From Psychrobacter immobilis (lineage in GTDB: Bacteria > Pseudomonadota > Gammaproteobacteria > Pseudomonadales > Moraxellaceae), in NCBI RefSeq assembly GCF_904846225.1, contig NZ_CAJGZJ010000017.1:1-64000 (forward strand): 64,000 bases of DNA, given 5' to 3'. Positions 14,019-20,805 of the stretch are shown here, in pieces. Below the pieces are notes generated by a model that did no database searches, was not told the DNA's origin, and worked only from the letters and a program-made list of their open reading frames with translations. Within the stretch, counting starts at the first letter, position 1; each line of letters starts with the position of its first letter. A program made the translations under genes and the position numbers.

Positions 14019-14251
14019 ATGGTTTAATGTACAATTTGTACCCGAAATATTCATGACATAACAGTGATTATGGCCAGTTAATTAGACAATATATAAAAAT
14101 TAAATTAGCGCTATTTTTTACAAAACTTTTATTATATTTATCATTGCCCTCCATCCCTTATCCCATCGTCCTTTGCTAAAATTTGGACACGCTGCAACCT
14201 CTTAGCAACATAGTTTTCATCTAAAATCAATATAGCATTTTCAAAAATTTC

Positions 14252-14297
14252 CCGCTATATTGTGCCTACCAATTAACAAACACGCTATATGTAGTAC
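14252..14297. promoter_or_regulatory. Candidate tandem NrdR boxes upstream of nrdA
   Basis: Two similar sites, cgctatattgtgc and cgctatatgtagt, have their ctatat cores at 14255 and 14285, exactly 30 bp apart. NrdR, the ATP/dATP-sensing repressor of ribonucleotide reductase genes, binds pairs of boxes (roughly ACACWATATATWGTGT) about three helical turns apart. The second site fits CWATATATWGT with one mismatch; the first is weaker. They lie 165-205 bp before nrdA. Confidence 0.5.
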
Positions 14298-14459: not shown

Positions 14460-16736
14460 ATGACACATATTGATAAAATCCAAGTGACCAAACGTGACGG
14501 ACGATTAGAGCTTATTGATTTGGATAAAATCCATAAGGTAATCGAGTGGGCAGCTCACGATTTGGAAAACGTGTCTGTGTCTCAAGTTGAGCTAAAGTCG
14601 CACATCCAGTTTTATGAAGGCATCAAGACTCGTGATATCCATGAGACTATTATCAAGTCAGCGGCCGACCTAATCTCTGAGACCACGCCTGACTATCAGT
14701 ACCTAGCAGCGCGTTTGGCGATCTTTCATCTACGTAAAATTGCTTACAATAGATTTACACCGCCACACTTATACGATCACGTAAAAAAGCTAACAGATGC
14801 GGGCAAATACGATCAACATATTCTGACTGACTATAGCCGTGCCGAATTTGATGAGTTAGAAGAATACCTTGACCACTGGCGCGATATGAATTTGGCGTAT
14901 GCCGCCGTTGAGCAAATGGCGGGTAAATACCTCGTCCAAGATCGCGTGAACAAAACCGTGTTCGAGAGCCCGCAGTTCTTGTACATGCTCGTTGGTATGT
15001 GCCTGTTTAGCCGTTATGAAAAATCAGAACGTTTGAACTACGTGAAGCGCTTCTATGATGCTACCTCAGAATTCAAAATCTCACTGCCAACGCCAATCAT
15101 GGCAGGTGTGCGTACACCATCGCGCCAGTTCAGCTCGTGCGTATTGATCGAATGTGGTGATAGCCTAGACTCAATCAACGCGACCACCAGCGCCATCGTA
15201 CGCTACGTGTCACAGCGTGCTGGTATTGGCATCAATGCAGGTCGTATCCGTGCCCTTGGTAGCCCTATTCGCGGCGGTGAAGCACAACATACTGGCTGTA
15301 TTCCATTCTACAAACTGTTCCAAACCGCAGTGAAATGCTGCTCACAAGGCGGCGTACGTGGCGGTGCAGCAACGTTGTTCTACCCATTGTGGCATTTGGA
15401 AGTTGAGTCACTCTTGGTACTCAAAAACAACCGCGGCGTCGAAGACAACCGTGTCCGTCATATGGACTACGGCGTTCAGTTAAATAAAACAATGTATACC
15501 CGCCTCATTAAAGGTCAAGACATCTCGCTATTTTCTCCGGGCGACACGCCTGGTTTGTATGATGCGTTCTTTGAAGATCAAGATAAATTCGAAGCGCTAT
15601 ATACCAAATACGAAAATGACTCAAGCATTCGTAGTCGTCAAATCCCAGCAGCAGACTTGTTTAGCCTAATGATGCAAGAGCGTGCCAGCACGGGTCGTAT
15701 CTACATCCAAAACGTCGATCATTGCAACACGCACAGCCCATTTGATGCAACGGTTGCGCCGATTCGCCAGTCAAACCTATGTATGGAAATCGCCCTACCG
15801 ACCAAGCCACTTGATAATATCAATGACGAAGCAGGCGAAATCGCGCTTTGTACGCTATCAGCGGTTAACTTGGGTAAAGTCGAAAACGTCAGCGATATCG
15901 AAGAACCAGCCGAGCTGATCGTCCGTGCGCTTGATGCCCTGCTCGACTATCAAGACTATCCAGTCAAAGCGGCTCAAAACGGCAGTATGCGTCGCCGTAC
16001 GCTAGGTGTTGGCGTGATTAACTATGCTTATTACCTTGCCAAAAATGGCGTGCGCTATTCAGACGACAGCGCGCTTGGTCTGACCCATCAAACATTTGAA
16101 GCGTTGCAATTCTACCTCTTGAAAGCGTCAAACAAATTGGCAAAAGAGCAAGGCGCTTGCCCCGCGTTCAATGAGACAACCTACTCGCAAGGTATCTTGC
16201 CGATTGATACGTACAAAAAGGACTTGGATAAAATCTGCCAAGAGCCGCTACACCTAGATTGGGAAACACTACGTGGCGAGATCACTGAGCACGGACTACG
16301 CAACTCTACCCTAACCGCCTTGATGCCATCTGAGACCTCTAGTCAGATCGCCAACGCGACCAATGGTATCGAGCCACCACGCGGTCTGGTCTCTATCAAA
16401 GCGTCAAAAGATGGCATCTTAAAGCAAGTCGTGCCTGAGATTGATAAGCTAAAAGATCAGTACGAGCTACTATGGCAAATGCCTAATAATGATGGCTATA
16501 TCAAGCTCGTCGCTATCATGCAAAAGTTCGTCGATCAAAGTATCTCTGCTAATACTAACTACGATCCGGTTCGTTATGAAGGCGGCCGTGTACCGATGAA
16601 GATATTGCTTAAAGACTTGCTCAACGCTTATAAACTAGGTGTAAAGACGTTGTACTACCATAACACGCGTGATGGTGCGAACGATGTCCAAGCGGATATG
16701 GAAGATGATTGTGCTGGTGGTGCATGTAAGATCTAG
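14460..16736 (+). CDS. nrdA: Class Ia ribonucleoside-diphosphate reductase alpha subunit NrdA
   Basis: Large subunit reducing NDPs to dNDPs, partner of NrdB. The N-terminal ATP-cone (IQVTKRDGRLELIDLDKIHK) gives allosteric control by ATP/dATP. Active-site cysteines appear in SSCVLIECGD, NLCMEIALP (catalytic N-x-C-x-E) and ALCTLSAVNLG. The mobile C-terminal redox pair is DCAGGACKI. 758 residues, close to E. coli NrdA (761). A Shine-Dalgarno (agagg) precedes the start. The nrdB gene lies 2.3 kb downstream, separated by four small genes, which is unusual. Confidence 0.97.
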   Translation: MTHIDKIQVTKRDGRLELIDLDKIHKVIEWAAHDLENVSVSQVELKSHIQFYEGIKTRDIHETIIKSAADLISETTPDYQYLAARLAIFHLRKIAYNRFTPPHLYDHVKKLTDAGKYDQHILTDYSRAEFDELEEYLDHWRDMNLAYAAVEQMAGKYLVQDRVNKTVFESPQFLYMLVGMCLFSRYEKSERLNYVKRFYDATSEFKISLPTPIMAGVRTPSRQFSSCVLIECGDSLDSINATTSAIVRYVSQRAGIGINAGRIRALGSPIRGGEAQHTGCIPFYKLFQTAVKCCSQGGVRGGAATLFYPLWHLEVESLLVLKNNRGVEDNRVRHMDYGVQLNKTMYTRLIKGQDISLFSPGDTPGLYDAFFEDQDKFEALYTKYENDSSIRSRQIPAADLFSLMMQERASTGRIYIQNVDHCNTHSPFDATVAPIRQSNLCMEIALPTKPLDNINDEAGEIALCTLSAVNLGKVENVSDIEEPAELIVRALDALLDYQDYPVKAAQNGSMRRRTLGVGVINYAYYLAKNGVRYSDDSALGLTHQTFEALQFYLLKASNKLAKEQGACPAFNETTYSQGILPIDTYKKDLDKICQEPLHLDWETLRGEITEHGLRNSTLTALMPSETSSQIANATNGIEPPRGLVSIKASKDGILKQVVPEIDKLKDQYELLWQMPNNDGYIKLVAIMQKFVDQSISANTNYDPVRYEGGRVPMKILLKDLLNAYKLGVKTLYYHNTRDGANDVQADMEDDCAGGACKI

Positions 16737-16897
16737 GTTTGCAAAAAGTGGACTCAGCTTTGGGGCTGGGTTCGCTTATTAAGAATTTATATTTGAAAAT
16801 GTATATTGGGTGAAGGTTGTGACACCCAATTGTTCAAAGTAGATGTATTGGGTTTCATTTTCGATAGTAGTATATATTGTCACTAACTGGAGTAGTT

Positions 16898-17857
16898 ATG
16901 GAAGTATATAAATACCGTACTTTAAATGAAGATAATATCGATAGCTTAAAAGAAAACTATTTTTGGGCAGCTTCTAAGAAAACTTTAAACGATCCATATG
17001 AAGGAACTTACTCTACAGAAATGATAGATGACTTTTTCGAGAAAATCAGTTCATTAGGAAAAATAGATTCTTCCAAAGATCTAAGGGAAAGTTTCAACTC
17101 TCTTGAAAAGAAGATTTCAGAGTGCAGTATATTTTCACTAAGTAAGGATTATGCTATCAATAGTTTATGGGCATACTATGCTGACAACCATAAAGGTATA
17201 TGTATTGAATATGATTTGGAAGAATTAATATCAAAAAACGTGCCTATGTATCAACATTTTGATATTAATTATGTGGATAACCCCTTAAGTATCAGTATGA
17301 ATGATGTTATATCTGAGAATATATTTAAAATAACTATTGGTACTAAAGAGCTATCTTGGTCAAACGAGCAAGAATATCGTATTATTAGCGATATACCTGA
17401 GAAGAACTATCATAGATCCGATGCTATTAAATCTATATTTTTTGGATTACAAACATCAAAAGATGAAAAAGAAAATTTGATGCAAATTTTAGCCAATAGA
17501 AATATTCAGTTTAAACAAATTTGCAAAGATAATAATTGCTATAAGCTATCGTCATATAATATTAACAACCCTTTTGATGTTGACAATAAAGTTACCGAAA
17601 TAGAAATACCTAAATATATTGTACCTGAAGAAAAATATGTTAAAGATGAATATAAAGAATATATACCGTATTTATATAAGGTAGCACAGTTCATGCTATC
17701 CTATTCAGATTGTTTAGAATTACATGATATAAACTTTTCTCAAAAGTCTACTATAGAAAATCCAATTATTTATGCAAACTTTAAAGAAAAAAACTCTATT
17801 TATTATTCTAGACAAAAATTATTTAGTGTAAAAAGTATGGGCAATAACAAGATATAA
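16898..17857 (+). CDS. DUF2971-family protein, AT-rich accessory gene
   Basis: 319 residues from the ATG at 16898, which follows ctggagtag; an upstream in-frame TTG at 16877 is less likely. Family marks are an early KYRTLNEDN, the turn TLNDPYEGTY and SLWAYYADNHKGICIEYDL. DUF2971 has no established biochemical role and is often found in accessory regions. The gene is clearly richer in A and T than nrdA before it and nrdB after it, which suggests acquisition. A small hairpin (attgggtg with cacccaat, 16805-16831) lies between nrdA and this gene. Confidence 0.8.
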   Translation: MEVYKYRTLNEDNIDSLKENYFWAASKKTLNDPYEGTYSTEMIDDFFEKISSLGKIDSSKDLRESFNSLEKKISECSIFSLSKDYAINSLWAYYADNHKGICIEYDLEELISKNVPMYQHFDINYVDNPLSISMNDVISENIFKITIGTKELSWSNEQEYRIISDIPEKNYHRSDAIKSIFFGLQTSKDEKENLMQILANRNIQFKQICKDNNCYKLSSYNINNPFDVDNKVTEIEIPKYIVPEEKYVKDEYKEYIPYLYKVAQFMLSYSDCLELHDINFSQKSTIENPIIYANFKEKNSIYYSRQKLFSVKSMGNNKI

Positions 17858-17915
17858 ACCTAACGTATGTTGGATCGAGCTTGAAACACCAAAATATTAG
17901 GCTTTGATCCAAGTT

Positions 17916-18122
17916 ATGAATAAAGCAAAAAGCACCTGTGATGAGTGCCCATCATCATACTTTACACTTAGCTCGAAGATGGCAAGTTTATGCCCTAATT
18001 GCGCTCACAAACTTTATGGCTATTTAAATTGTAGCCATCATTTTCCAGATGGTGTTTGTGTAGAGTGTGGTTGGAACGGTCAAGAGTCTGATTATGTAAA
18101 AGACTTATTAAAGTGCGCTTAG
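17916..18122 (+). CDS. Small cysteine-rich putative zinc-ribbon protein
   Basis: 68 residues from the ATG at 17916 (a TTG at 17904 is in frame). Three metal-binding-like pairs are visible: CDEC near the N-terminus, CPNCAHK in the middle, and CSHHFPDGVCVECGW towards the C-terminus. This suggests one or two bound zinc ions. I do not recognise the family. It lies 58 bp after the DUF2971 gene in the block between nrdA and nrdB. Confidence 0.6.
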   Translation: MNKAKSTCDECPSSYFTLSSKMASLCPNCAHKLYGYLNCSHHFPDGVCVECGWNGQESDYVKDLLKCA

Positions 18123-18194
18123 CATATCGATTTTATAAAATAATTGAAAAGGTGCATGGAATTTACCCTATGCCTACTAAATAGGTTGGATAAA

Positions 18195-18560
18195 ATGCAG
18201 CTGTCTTCACCAATCATTTATAAACGCTCCGCTAATGCAATAACTTACCGTGATGGTGGTTCACTTGAATTAAGATTCGCCGCAGATAACGACAGAAAAT
18301 ATTGTATATTTATGGAAGTTGTTCATGCCTCACCAGATGATTGCAAACGTTATCAACCGCCAATGCTATTTAAAGAGTCATTTGACATAAATAACAGTAA
18401 GCCTGAAGACTTTATCGGCTATTTAAATTGGCAACAGATTAAAGGCTTGATTAGCGAAATTAGAATGGATATCGGTCAAGATTTCAAGAAACATTCTGAT
18501 AGCGTATATTTCGAATTGATTGGAAATATTGCGAATAATAATGGTTGGCTTATCAAGTAA
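18195..18560 (+). CDS. Hypothetical protein in the nrdA-nrdB interval
   Basis: 121 residues from the ATG at 18195, preceded by aggttgga; the frame is open from 18144 but without a better start. Soluble, mixed alpha/beta composition, with a central DIGQDFKKHSDS and no membrane segment. No family recognised. Function unknown; its place in a row of small plus-strand genes between nrdA and nrdB is the only context. Confidence 0.55.
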   Translation: MQLSSPIIYKRSANAITYRDGGSLELRFAADNDRKYCIFMEVVHASPDDCKRYQPPMLFKESFDINNSKPEDFIGYLNWQQIKGLISEIRMDIGQDFKKHSDSVYFELIGNIANNNGWLIK

Positions 18561-18622
18561 AATACTTTGGCTTTACCGCTATAATTAAAACATACAGATA
18601 GAACTAAAACGACGGAGGTCAC

Positions 18623-18979
18623 GTGCAATATACCGCAATCATCAAAGACGGTGGTTTGTTTATCCCAAACGTATTTTCAGACCTCAACGATGGTGGCTCG
18701 CATATCGTACAAGTCGAAGTTGATATTGCAGACGTGCGTCAGCAGTTAAGCGCAAGCGTAGAGTTAAAGACAGCAGCGCCGAAACCACCCAAAAAACAAG
18801 TAAAGAAGCAGACCAAAAGAGAAATACAAAGAACAGCGGAAAATGCTGACTTGGGCACACTGCGTAAAAGCGCCCTCGATGAATTGGAAGCATTAGATGA
18901 TGGTGAGCTGAGTGAAATCTTCAAAGCCTATATGAACGATGGGCAAGCATCATCACAGATATCACTAGAGAACCTATAA
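18623..18979 (+). CDS. Hypothetical basic/acidic protein with GTG start
   Basis: 118 residues. The start is a GTG at 18623 with a strong Shine-Dalgarno (acggaggtcac). A short beta-like N-terminal part ([16 protein letters not shown]) is followed by a basic linker ([16 protein letters not shown]) and an acidic helical tail ([20 protein letters not shown]). The N-terminus is faintly like small antitoxins that begin with a beta strand, but no toxin gene accompanies it, so I do not call it one. It ends 97 bp before nrdB. Confidence 0.6.
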
Positions 18980-19076
18980 TCTAAATAGCTATCATCCAAA
19001 ACTTTGTAATAATATCAAATTAAAGCCAGTCAAATCCATATACATTAACAAACGTATCACTTATAAAGGCAGTCCC

Positions 19077-20210
19077 ATGACTTACTCGATTTTTTCTCAA
19101 ACGCCAAACAATGCGCTAAAAGAGCCGATGTTCTTTGGTCAGCCAGTCAACGTGGCGCGCTATGACCAACAAAAGCACCCAATCTTTGAGCAATTGATAG
19201 AAAAGCAACTGTCGTTCTTTTGGCGTCCAGAAGAAGTTGATGTGTCACGCGACCGTATGGATTTTAGCAATCTGTCCTCGCATGAGCAGCATATATTTTT
19301 GAGTAACCTCAAGTATCAGACCCTACTTGACTCTATCCAAGGTCGTAGCCCAAACGTCGTGTTATTGCCGCTGGTGTCTATTCCTGAGCTTGAAACGTGG
19401 ATTGAGACATGGTCGTTCTCCGAAACCATTCACTCACGCAGTTATACTCATATTATTCGTAATATCGTCAATGACCCAAATATTATCTTTGACGACATTA
19501 TGCAAAATGAGCATATTTTAGGACGTGCCTCTGATATTGCTCAGTACTATGATGATCTGTACCGCAACTCACAATTATATAGCTTGTACGGTGCTGGCAC
19601 GCACAATATCAATGGCGAGCAAGTTACGGTTGATTTGAGATCATTAAAAAAACAGATGTATCTTTGCATTATGGCGGTTAACGTATTAGAAGCCATTCGT
19701 TTTTATGTGTCATTTGCCTGCTCGTTCGCCTTCGCTGAGCGCAAGCTGATGGAAGGCAATGCCAAGATTATCAAGTTGATCGCACGTGATGAAGCGCTGC
19801 ATTTGACGGGTACTCAACACATGCTGAATCTCATGCGTAACGGTCGTGACGATCCTGAGATGGTTGAGATTGCCGCAGAATGTTACGAGGACAGTATCGA
19901 AATCTTCCGTAAAGCGGCCGAGCAAGAAAAAGAATGGGCAGGTTATCTATTCAAAGACGGTTCGATGATTGGTCTAAATAAAGATATTTTGTGCCAATAT
20001 ATTGAGTTTATTACTAACTTGCGTATGGAAGCCGTTGGTTTGCCATCAGTATTCCCGAAATCAAAATCAAATCCGATTCCGTGGATTAATACGTGGTTGT
20101 CTTCTGATAACGTGCAAGTTGCGCCGCAAGAAACAGAAATCAGCTCATACTTGGTTGGTCAGATTGATTCTGATTTATCAGACAGTGACTTTGATGACTT
20201 TGAATTATAA
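19077..20210 (+). CDS. nrdB: Class Ia ribonucleotide reductase beta subunit NrdB
   Basis: Diiron/tyrosyl-radical subunit that starts the radical transfer to NrdA. Visible marks include the radical tyrosine region [17 protein letters not shown] and the iron-ligand helices [12 protein letters not shown] and [14 protein letters not shown]. The acidic tail [10 protein letters not shown] docks into NrdA. 377 residues, the class Ia length. Shine-Dalgarno aaagg. It is followed by a 16-bp tandem array, a copy of the intergenic repeat family and then yfaE, whose product supports assembly of its diiron cofactor. Confidence 0.97.
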
Positions 20211-20222
20211 AAGCTTTGAGCT

Positions 20223-20286
20223 GTAATGACTTTGAACGGTAATGGCTTTGAGCGGTAATGACTTTGAGCGGTAATGACTTTGAGCT
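20223..20286 (+). repeat. Four tandem copies of a 16-bp unit after nrdB
   Basis: The unit gtaatgactttgagcg repeats four times with single-base changes, starting 12 bp after the nrdB stop. The last codons of nrdB (gatgactttgaattataa) share the core tgactttga, so the array may have grown from the 3' end of the gene. Confidence 0.9.
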
Positions 20287-20385
20287 GTAACTGTTTAAAT
20301 TCTGATGCCTGTAATGACATAAAATATTTGATAAATGAATAAAGCAACGCGCAATATAAATGGCAATACGGCAGGAAAATTGAGA

Positions 20386-20538: not shown

Positions 20539-20805
20539 ATGACTTGGGTAATGACGAGTAAGAAGCAGTTTTACTTGCACGATGATGAAAGTCTGCTTGA
20601 TGGCCTACTGCGCACTGGGCATGAGGTCAATTATCAATGCCGAGAGGGTTATTGTGGCAGTTGCCGAATCAAACGTATTGCCAGCTCACATATCATCGAT
20701 TACCCGTTTAACCCGCTTGCGATGATTGAGGATGATGAAATCCTGCCCTGCTGCTGCCGTGTGCAAGGGGTTATTTATATCAATCATGAACCTATCGTAG
20801 AGTAA
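20539..20805 (+). CDS. yfaE: YfaE-like [2Fe-2S] ferredoxin of the class Ia RNR system
   Basis: 88 residues from the ATG at 20539 (agga at 20529-20532 precedes it). Plant-type ferredoxin domain: CREGYCGSCRIK provides three cysteines and LPCCCRV the fourth. E. coli YfaE delivers electrons to maintain the diiron-tyrosyl cofactor of NrdB and is encoded right after nrdB, as here. A reading from 20500 would start inside the repeat and is unlikely. Confidence 0.88.
   Translation: MTWVMTSKKQFYLHDDESLLDGLLRTGHEVNYQCREGYCGSCRIKRIASSHIIDYPFNPLAMIEDDEILPCCCRVQGVIYINHEPIVE

Follow-up and report, generated by a model that had tools for sequence, protein, structure and literature searches.

In Psychrobacter immobilis the genes for the two subunits of class Ia ribonucleotide reductase (RNR), nrdA and nrdB, are parted by four further genes, and the question that this locus raises is what these genes are and why they lie there. 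We analysed the locus in a 64,000-nucleotide stretch of contig NZ_CAJGZJ010000017.1 (positions 1 to 64,000, hereafter the window), which belongs to a genome of 3.34 Mb in 63 contigs (G000). Here, nrdA (alpha subunit, 14460-16736; NCBIfam PRK09103, E 0) and nrdB (beta subunit, 19077-20210; NCBIfam PRK09101, E 6.1e-220), which family searches assign to class Ia with an ATP-cone (E 2.7e-13), flank the interval 16737-19076. As originally described, this interval holds four open reading frames (ORFs), all on the plus strand like nrdA and nrdB themselves: a DUF2971 gene (16898-17857; PF11185, E 1.2e-9, above cutoff) with a guanine-plus-cytosine content of 25-32% against 46-51% across most of nrdA; a 68-residue, cysteine-rich, zinc-ribbon-like protein with three CxxC motifs (17916-18122), which matches no Pfam or NCBIfam family above cutoff; a 121-residue protein (18195-18560) with no match at E <= 0.001 in four libraries, Pfam and NCBIfam included; and a GTG-started protein of 118 residues with a basic linker and an acidic tail (18623-18979), hereafter P118. 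The original prediction also took these four genes for a small module that might be expressed in response to deoxynucleoside triphosphate (dNTP) status. The genus as a whole points elsewhere. It is near certain that in Psychrobacter the space between nrdA and nrdB serves as a slot for exchangeable cargo, with nrdA as its left border and P118 as its resident right border.

This conclusion comes from a survey of 105 Psychrobacter genomes, those of less than 90% completeness being retained, in which an NrdA match was found in 103 and an NrdB match likewise in 103. The interval was taken wherever both genes lay on one contig, which gave 93 intervals and that of the window, 94 in all, and these form the sample for the interval counts below. 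Left out were genomes in which the genes were not on one contig or nrdB was not found (G012, G023, G026, G034, G040, G041, G074 and G083), two without an nrdA match (G062 and G081), one without an nrdB match (G087), and a second nrdA of G056 on contig C5. The interval ranges from 204 to 9452 bp with a median of 2408 bp, and 92 of the 94 contain at least one ORF of 100 residues or more; the remaining two, both shorter than 500 bp, are the only ones in which nrdA and nrdB can be called adjacent. The premise that the two genes are normally neighbors therefore holds in part only: they lie about 140-270 bp apart in three genomes of two other genera (G186, G194 and G117), but in one further genus (g7) and in most of another (g10) a long distance separates them or they are on different contigs, and in 92 of 94 Psychrobacter intervals they are separated by cargo. 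Across named loci, the nrdA-nrdB spacing varies from 1577 to 5217 bp (n = 62), and the neighboring spacings are narrow, namely 463-701 bp between a DUF493 gene and nrdA (n = 50), 37-336 bp between nrdB and a ferredoxin gene (n = 66), and 79-219 bp between the latter and degQ (n = 65).

The content of the interval also varies from genome to genome. Cargo ORFs of at least 100 residues fall into 81 families, of which 45 occur in a single genome; these family counts derive from an ORF picker that down-weighted minus-strand ORFs, while the strand counts given below were redone unweighted. For the DUF2971, zinc-ribbon and 121-residue families the count is 5 of 94 intervals each; their combinations differ, and all three are found together in the window only. 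It is very improbable, then, that the four genes constitute a fixed nrd accessory module responding to dNTP status. Such a module would accord with their shared nrd strand, with the co-occurrence of the DUF2971 and zinc-ribbon genes in 2 of 94 intervals, and with the zinc-ribbon and 121-residue genes being neighbors in 3 of 94, but the company of these three families varies, nearly every genome has different cargo at this place, and of the four only P118 is widespread. Of the four genes, P118 alone is tied to the locus. The adjoining zinc-ribbon and 121-residue genes (in the window, L044 and L064) occur in both orders, and it is possible that they form a small functional pair.

How the cargo comes to differ can be read from the flanks, for which identity was computed over the 3' 330 bp of nrdA and the 5' 230 bp of nrdB. 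Among 143 genome pairs with 96-98% identical flanks, only 4 have any cargo in common. In one pair with identical flanks and unrelated cargo (L049 and L055), the alignment is 100% identical to about the nrdA stop codon, gives way to approximately 1.25 kb of unrelated sequence, resumes at 84-95% through a yefM-relE pair, and is again 100% identical from just before P118 onward. Conversely, cargo identity exceeds nrdA-flank identity in 34 of 144 cargo-sharing pairs, as in L074 and L087, whose cargo is 97.0% identical between flanks of 81.5 and 82.6%. Since cargo can be alike across divergent flanks, yet different across identical flanks, it must have been swapped. In the aligned pairs, the left breakpoint lies near the nrdA stop codon and the right one at the end of the cargo, at relE or at P118. 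The route is most simply homologous recombination via nrdA on one side and relE, P118 or nrdB on the other, and it is likely that recombination drives the slot. Remnants of such events are also present. In one interval (L040, genome G010), a second nrdA 3' end, with 146 bp to the stop codon, lies at interval position 455 behind a new cargo gene, and after it come the hairpin that usually follows nrdA and then further cargo; this duplicate is a fossil of cargo stacking. A 33-bp remnant of the nrdB 5' end was found in L065 (score 24.2, compared to no more than 14.6 in the control). The second nrdA 3' end behind new cargo is also recorded in L217. On contig C5 of G056 (L218), a divergent second nrdA (85% identity) has cargo and, with it, a short remnant of an nrdA 3' end, but no nrdB nearby; G056 appears to be a metagenome-assembled genome, and this second nrdA is perhaps contamination.

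An alternative route would be site-specific integration, with mobile elements or integron-like cassettes being cut in and out at short repeats. In 13 of 80 genomes, both borders carry a loose form of GGCGGGNTTGGCT, an island in a related genus (G208, described below) carries a tyrosine-recombinase-like ORF between nrdA and nrdB, and an ORF matching the rve integrase core is present in at least one Psychrobacter interval, a point that also counts against the reading preferred here. Among 32 further cargo ORFs, the rve integrase-core families have one member each among the matches listed, so that at least one ORF is concerned, and no tyrosine integrase is among the families listed in general scans of the genus cargo proteins. 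Nevertheless, the similarity of the borders is not clearly above controls (p 0.08 and 0.03), and the right breakpoints vary in position. The window interval has no tRNA, no Rfam match and no direct repeat of at least 14 nt spanning both borders. Cargo mostly amounts to one to a few genes, and both border elements are single-copy and confined to this locus where they are found (20 and 9 of 40 genomes). We consider site-specific integration quite improbable as the principal route. A 13-nt near-repeat at both borders was considered as an attachment site and was not upheld.

A second question is what kind of genes the slot carries, and here a defence function is suggested for part of the cargo. 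The DUF2971 protein of the window matches the PADLOC candidate defence family PDC-S31 (E 3.6e-39) as well as phrog_1762 (E 3e-38), and its PF11185 score is 39.8 bits for a cutoff of 22; it is 319 residues long against 259 positions of the PDC-S31 model, and its C-terminal third lies outside the match. Judging from these matches it is a candidate defence gene. Comparison with the PDB yielded nothing informative for this protein; a search of phages gave one match of 25% identity, and one of plasmids gave 29 records, all below 60% identity. In a PADLOC scan of 44 slot proteins, with genome counts that assume cluster mates to belong to the family of their representative, matches below 1e-30 were obtained for CBASS (6 intervals), PARIS (2), DRT8 (1), PDC-S20 (1), PDC-S15 (2), PDC-S31 (5) and a PD-T4-6/mad6-type kinase (1, L112). 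A CBASS cyclase with E1-E2, JAB and NucC components is encoded by the L034 and L070 representatives, with the same clusters in L098, and further CBASS cyclases are found in L120, its cluster mate L103, and L116, with 2TM (L120) and 4TM (L103) effectors. PARIS AriAB is located in L054 (cluster mate L078), DRT8 in L117, PDC-S20 in L061 and PDC-S15 in L053 (cluster mate L039), and the PDC-S31 intervals are that of the window plus four cluster mates. Weaker PADLOC matches include AbiU, PDC-S59, PDC-S66 and a caspase-like protein, while Pfam identifies DUF4238, DUF4145, DUF6680 and P63C as well as Cap15, TIR and kinase domains in the cargo. As a control, we scanned the 43 other ORFs of at least 100 residues in the window, among which 17 families were matched at E <= 1e-3 with one member each. 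Below 1e-30, the slot proteins exceed this control (14 of 44 versus at most 3 of 43, p 0.006), the scanned slot proteins being chosen representatives rather than a random sample.

The third element of the slot is P118, which precedes nrdB in 80 of 94 intervals. Its full-length matches in the genus adjoin nrdB wherever nrdB was found, and in G023, where no NrdB match was obtained, P118 is encoded on the nrdA contig. Within named genomes, a P118 profile recovered 70 loci, all of them from Psychrobacter. In 12 of the 14 genomes lacking P118, NrdA is no more than 90% identical to that of the window, the other two being at 91 and 93%. P118 matches no Pfam or NCBIfam family above cutoff, although its last 31 residues are 45% identical to the tail of YefM antitoxins (E 6e-8), which suggests that this tail may bind a toxin. 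The two cargo families c1 and c2 are, by Pfam, a YefM (PF02604) and RelE/ParE (PF05016) pair. Both yefM and relE accompany P118 in 33 of 94 intervals, yefM without relE in 3 and neither in 44, whereas none of the three is present in 14; relE ends within 120 bp upstream of P118 in 31 of 80 cases and is not just upstream in 49 of 80. At E <= 1e-8, the 105 genomes contain just two members of the slot's RelE family outside the locus, and the genome of the window contains none. The median ratio of nonsynonymous to synonymous substitution rates (dN/dS) is 0.13 for the N-terminal part of P118, 0.52 for the linker and 0.045 for the C-terminal part, where medians refer to moderately diverged pairs and the pooled values given below are near saturation. 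By these ratios P118 is under purifying selection. G074, G031, G077 and G006 have short matches to its N-terminal domain elsewhere in the genome, and that of G062 lies before nrdB; the one in G031 is a 98-residue ORF (hhalign 98%) beside a PIN-domain ORF. From these features P118 could be a resident chimeric antitoxin, that is, one in which a YefM-like tail has been joined to a different N-terminal domain, a proposal we make tentatively and at somewhat less than even confidence.

Side observations on the N-terminal relatives may be of separate interest. The P118-N-terminus ORF and the PIN-domain ORF of G031 lie together at L210:565-1229 and are possibly an undescribed VapBC-like pair. By eye, the relatives in G077 and G006 lack a PIN gene and lie between monooxygenase-like genes, and the ORF of G062, located directly before nrdB, has a tail like that of the G031 ORF.

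P118 might instead be a regulator or accessory protein of nrdB, whose antitoxin likeness reflects its origin only. In favor of this are its place beside nrdB, the purifying selection on it, a conservation that is equal with and without relE, and the 44 intervals mentioned above in which it has neither yefM nor relE for company. However, the part that resembles YefM is the most conserved part of the protein, relE lies closely upstream in the 31 cases already counted, and insertions are tolerated between P118 and nrdB (L111, L031, L098 and L120). We therefore regard a role confined to nrdB as doubtful. P118 searches of plasmids and viral contigs gave nothing informative.

The question of how the cargo is expressed bears upon the link to dNTP status that was originally suggested. 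Upstream of nrdA on the plus strand, at 14250-14295, is a pair of NrdR-like elements (TCCCGCTATATTGTGC / ACACGCTATATGTAGT), which we take to be NrdR boxes, with GCTATAT cores 30 bp apart. The exact core pair at 14254-14290 is the sole match in the 64-kb window and did not occur in 100 shuffles, and cores of this spacing are found in 50 of 52 upstream sequences (51 Psychrobacter loci and the window). No such boxes occur in any interval (best score 12.1, compared to at least 24.5 before nrdA). The cargo itself has a strand bias. When P118 and two large islands, L079 and L096, are set aside, all 95 ORFs that reach 200 residues lie on the nrd strand, and those of at least 100 residues number 150 on it and 7 on the other, whereas the two islands together have 4 and 7 of the larger class. 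The conserved P118 leader (18580-18619, plus strand), as examined in 80 genome upstream regions, has a -10-like TATAAT and a GGAGGT ribosome-binding site. Read-through from nrdA, attenuated after its stop codon and aided by a helper promoter before P118, would fit this strand bias, and from the sequence signals we judge this arrangement to be evenly poised between true and false. An apparent depletion of terminators on the nrd strand (raw counts of 34 versus 75) vanished when T-runs were counted for each strand (16/1043 versus 41/2214, p 0.57). As a separate observation, 41 of 94 intervals (e.g., L082 and L118) have a conserved block around AAGCGGTAGGCGGGATTGGCT ahead of P118; in the 20 of 40 genomes having this block, it is present in one copy, at the nrdA-nrdB locus, and it is absent from the genome of the window.

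Taken together, we propose with reasonable confidence that the slot is a small hotspot, rich in defence genes, within a pair of core genes, that its cargo is exchanged by recombination and that P118 is its resident. Psychrobacter are transformable, although the literature that we looked through did not confirm it, and DNA from other Psychrobacter would enter the cell probably via natural transformation. The incoming DNA would recombine through nrdA, as the left homology arm, and through yefM-relE, P118 or nrdB on the right, and the resident cargo would thereby be replaced; rare mis-joining would stack new cargo ahead of an old nrdA end. The cargo would be transcribed toward nrdB; some of this transcription might start at the nrdA promoter, under NrdR control, and pass the attenuating hairpin, and a separate promoter would help P118-nrdB. 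P118 would neutralize the RelE toxins borne by the slot, and alleles with and without yefM-relE would thus be interchangeable without cell killing, in the manner of anti-addiction. In the window, the present cargo consists of the DUF2971/PDC-S31 gene and two small proteins.

Several observations weigh against one or another part of this proposal. With regard to defence, weak PADLOC matches have no discriminating power (at E <= 1e-3, 23 of 44 slot proteins versus at most 17 of 43 neighbors, p 0.28), and 4 of the 14 matches below 1e-30 come from a single CBASS operon type. For the common families c5 (10 genomes), c7, c12 and c26, PADLOC gave no match, and Pfam gave none either, barring one weak exception. 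With regard to P118, neither Pfam (above cutoff) nor the PDB gave a match for its N-terminal domain, and its structure model is poor (predicted local distance difference test score, pLDDT, 63). The pooled dN/dS of its tail is 0.124 in genomes without relE and 0.113 in those with it; a tail equally conserved without relE implies that RelE is perhaps not its sole partner. In addition, 12 of the 14 genomes lacking P118 still hold cargo, from which it follows that the slot is independent of P118.

The remaining difficulties concern read-through, since there are several signals that might stop it. Directly 3' of nrdA in the window, a strong hairpin with a 14-bp stem is predicted by RNA folding (16746-16777, plus strand), and the best 45-nt fold within 130 nt of nrdA is -20.3 kcal/mol. 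Of the intervals of at least 700 bp, 81 of 92 have a fold of -12 kcal/mol or stronger in their first 130 nt; the same holds for 36 of 184 control stretches, and the median is -19.75 for the intervals and -9.4 for the controls (p 4e-30). Our own scan of the window also found a second, weaker terminator-like site (16822-16861, plus strand), a -9.0 kcal/mol hairpin followed by TTCATTTT, which precedes the window's own cargo and weighs against read-through there; a simple consensus terminator scan gave 6 sites, no excess over shuffles, and this site was not among them. Finally, the TATAAT before P118 is present in 35 of the 49 genomes without relE just upstream. Such signals would be expected if the cargo were transcribed separately and the strand bias arose from selection against antisense or colliding transcription into nrdB. 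This alternative is a close rival to read-through with attenuation, and its chances seem to us a little short of even. In its favor, beyond the hairpins, the window's own terminator-like site and the TATAAT before P118, is that one genome with an empty site (L063) shows, by eye, a hairpin and T-rich tail between the two genes. Against it are the uniform direction of the large cargo ORFs (95 of 95 outside the two islands) and the small number of hairpin-plus-T-run sites, only 13 in the first 200 bp of all 94 intervals, which implies that most of the post-nrdA hairpins are not classical terminators. The same alternatives decide how much can be retained of a regulatory link. In its fullest form, the RNR locus would be a replaceable, dNTP-gated defence slot, in which low dNTPs release NrdR, nrdA, cargo and nrdB are raised together, and P118 disarms RelE. 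From its sequence signals we consider this fullest form unlikely, and the site at 16822-16861 led us to rate it lower and separate transcription higher.

Just outside the slot, the window encodes a YfaE-like 2Fe-2S ferredoxin 3' of nrdB (20539-20805, plus strand; NCBIfam PRK10713, E 5.2e-23). Between the two genes, at 20214-20290 and thus just after nrdB, a 16-bp unit (CTTTGAGCGGTAATGA) is repeated in tandem approximately 4.8 times.

When looking beyond Psychrobacter, it appears that the slot may reach further. The nrdAB genes of one genus (g15) and of several further genera in the family are distant ones (NrdB 24-28% and, in most, NrdA about 30% identical). Our sample outside the genus comprised 20 intervals from g15, g11 and g9 together with one large interval from g15, and these intervals mostly hold no ORFs or small ones only. 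One of them, from G187, contains a 307-residue ORF whose best plasmid matches are annotated as Abi family, and the large one (G208 of g15, L219) is an island of approximately 19 kb between the distant nrdA and nrdB, with the tyrosine-recombinase-like ORF already mentioned, a type I methyltransferase, and a CD-NTase (CBASS) with a Cap2-like gene. It is these two cases that extend the slot, possibly, to other genera.

Two known kinds of system come closest, namely anti-addiction antitoxins and the defence hotspots that lie between core genes. In E. coli, as described in one study, such hotspots receive mobile elements that bring defence genes, and for the most part they stand empty (PMC10121019). 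The Psychrobacter slot resembles these in its conserved core flanks and in defence cargo, CBASS included, that differs per genome; unlike them, it parts the two genes of one RNR, is filled in 92 of 94 cases and holds few genes, and at most a few of its intervals show a clear integrase domain. The main text of that study does not name nrdA, nrdB or yfaE. The core defence hotspots of P. aeruginosa, as described (PMC10250203), are similarly fixed chromosomal places rich in defence genes. Among the papers listed in searches on the locus, its flanks or Psychrobacter defence, no title or opening of an abstract mentions an nrdA-nrdB hotspot. As for P118, it shares the C-terminal tail of YefM in the type II YefM-RelE/ParE pairs (PF02604, PF05016), but it differs from them in its N-terminal domain, in failing to match the Phd/YefM model, and in lacking a relE just upstream in the 49 of 80 cases noted above. 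The Erwinia CcdA anti-addiction antitoxin (PMC7354431) is comparable in being a stand-alone chromosomal antitoxin that could neutralize an incoming toxin, whereas P118 is domain-swapped and tied to a locus of cargo exchange, with a neutralizing function that is putative.

The usual description of a defence hotspot is of a landing site for mobile elements between core genes that are unrelated. Here, it is the genes for the subunits of one essential enzyme that are parted, in nearly the whole genus, and the turnover of the cargo outpaces that of its flanks. The slot is consequently a place to seek new defence genes, for which c5, c7, c12 and c26 are the families to begin with. It also makes a link between nucleotide supply and the expression of defence directly testable, and it is a natural case for the anti-addiction idea. 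If the dNTP-gated reading were true, infection or DNA damage would lower dNTPs and thereby raise the expression of the slot cargo, and Psychrobacter would possess a slot that could be re-armed by transformation without post-segregational killing.

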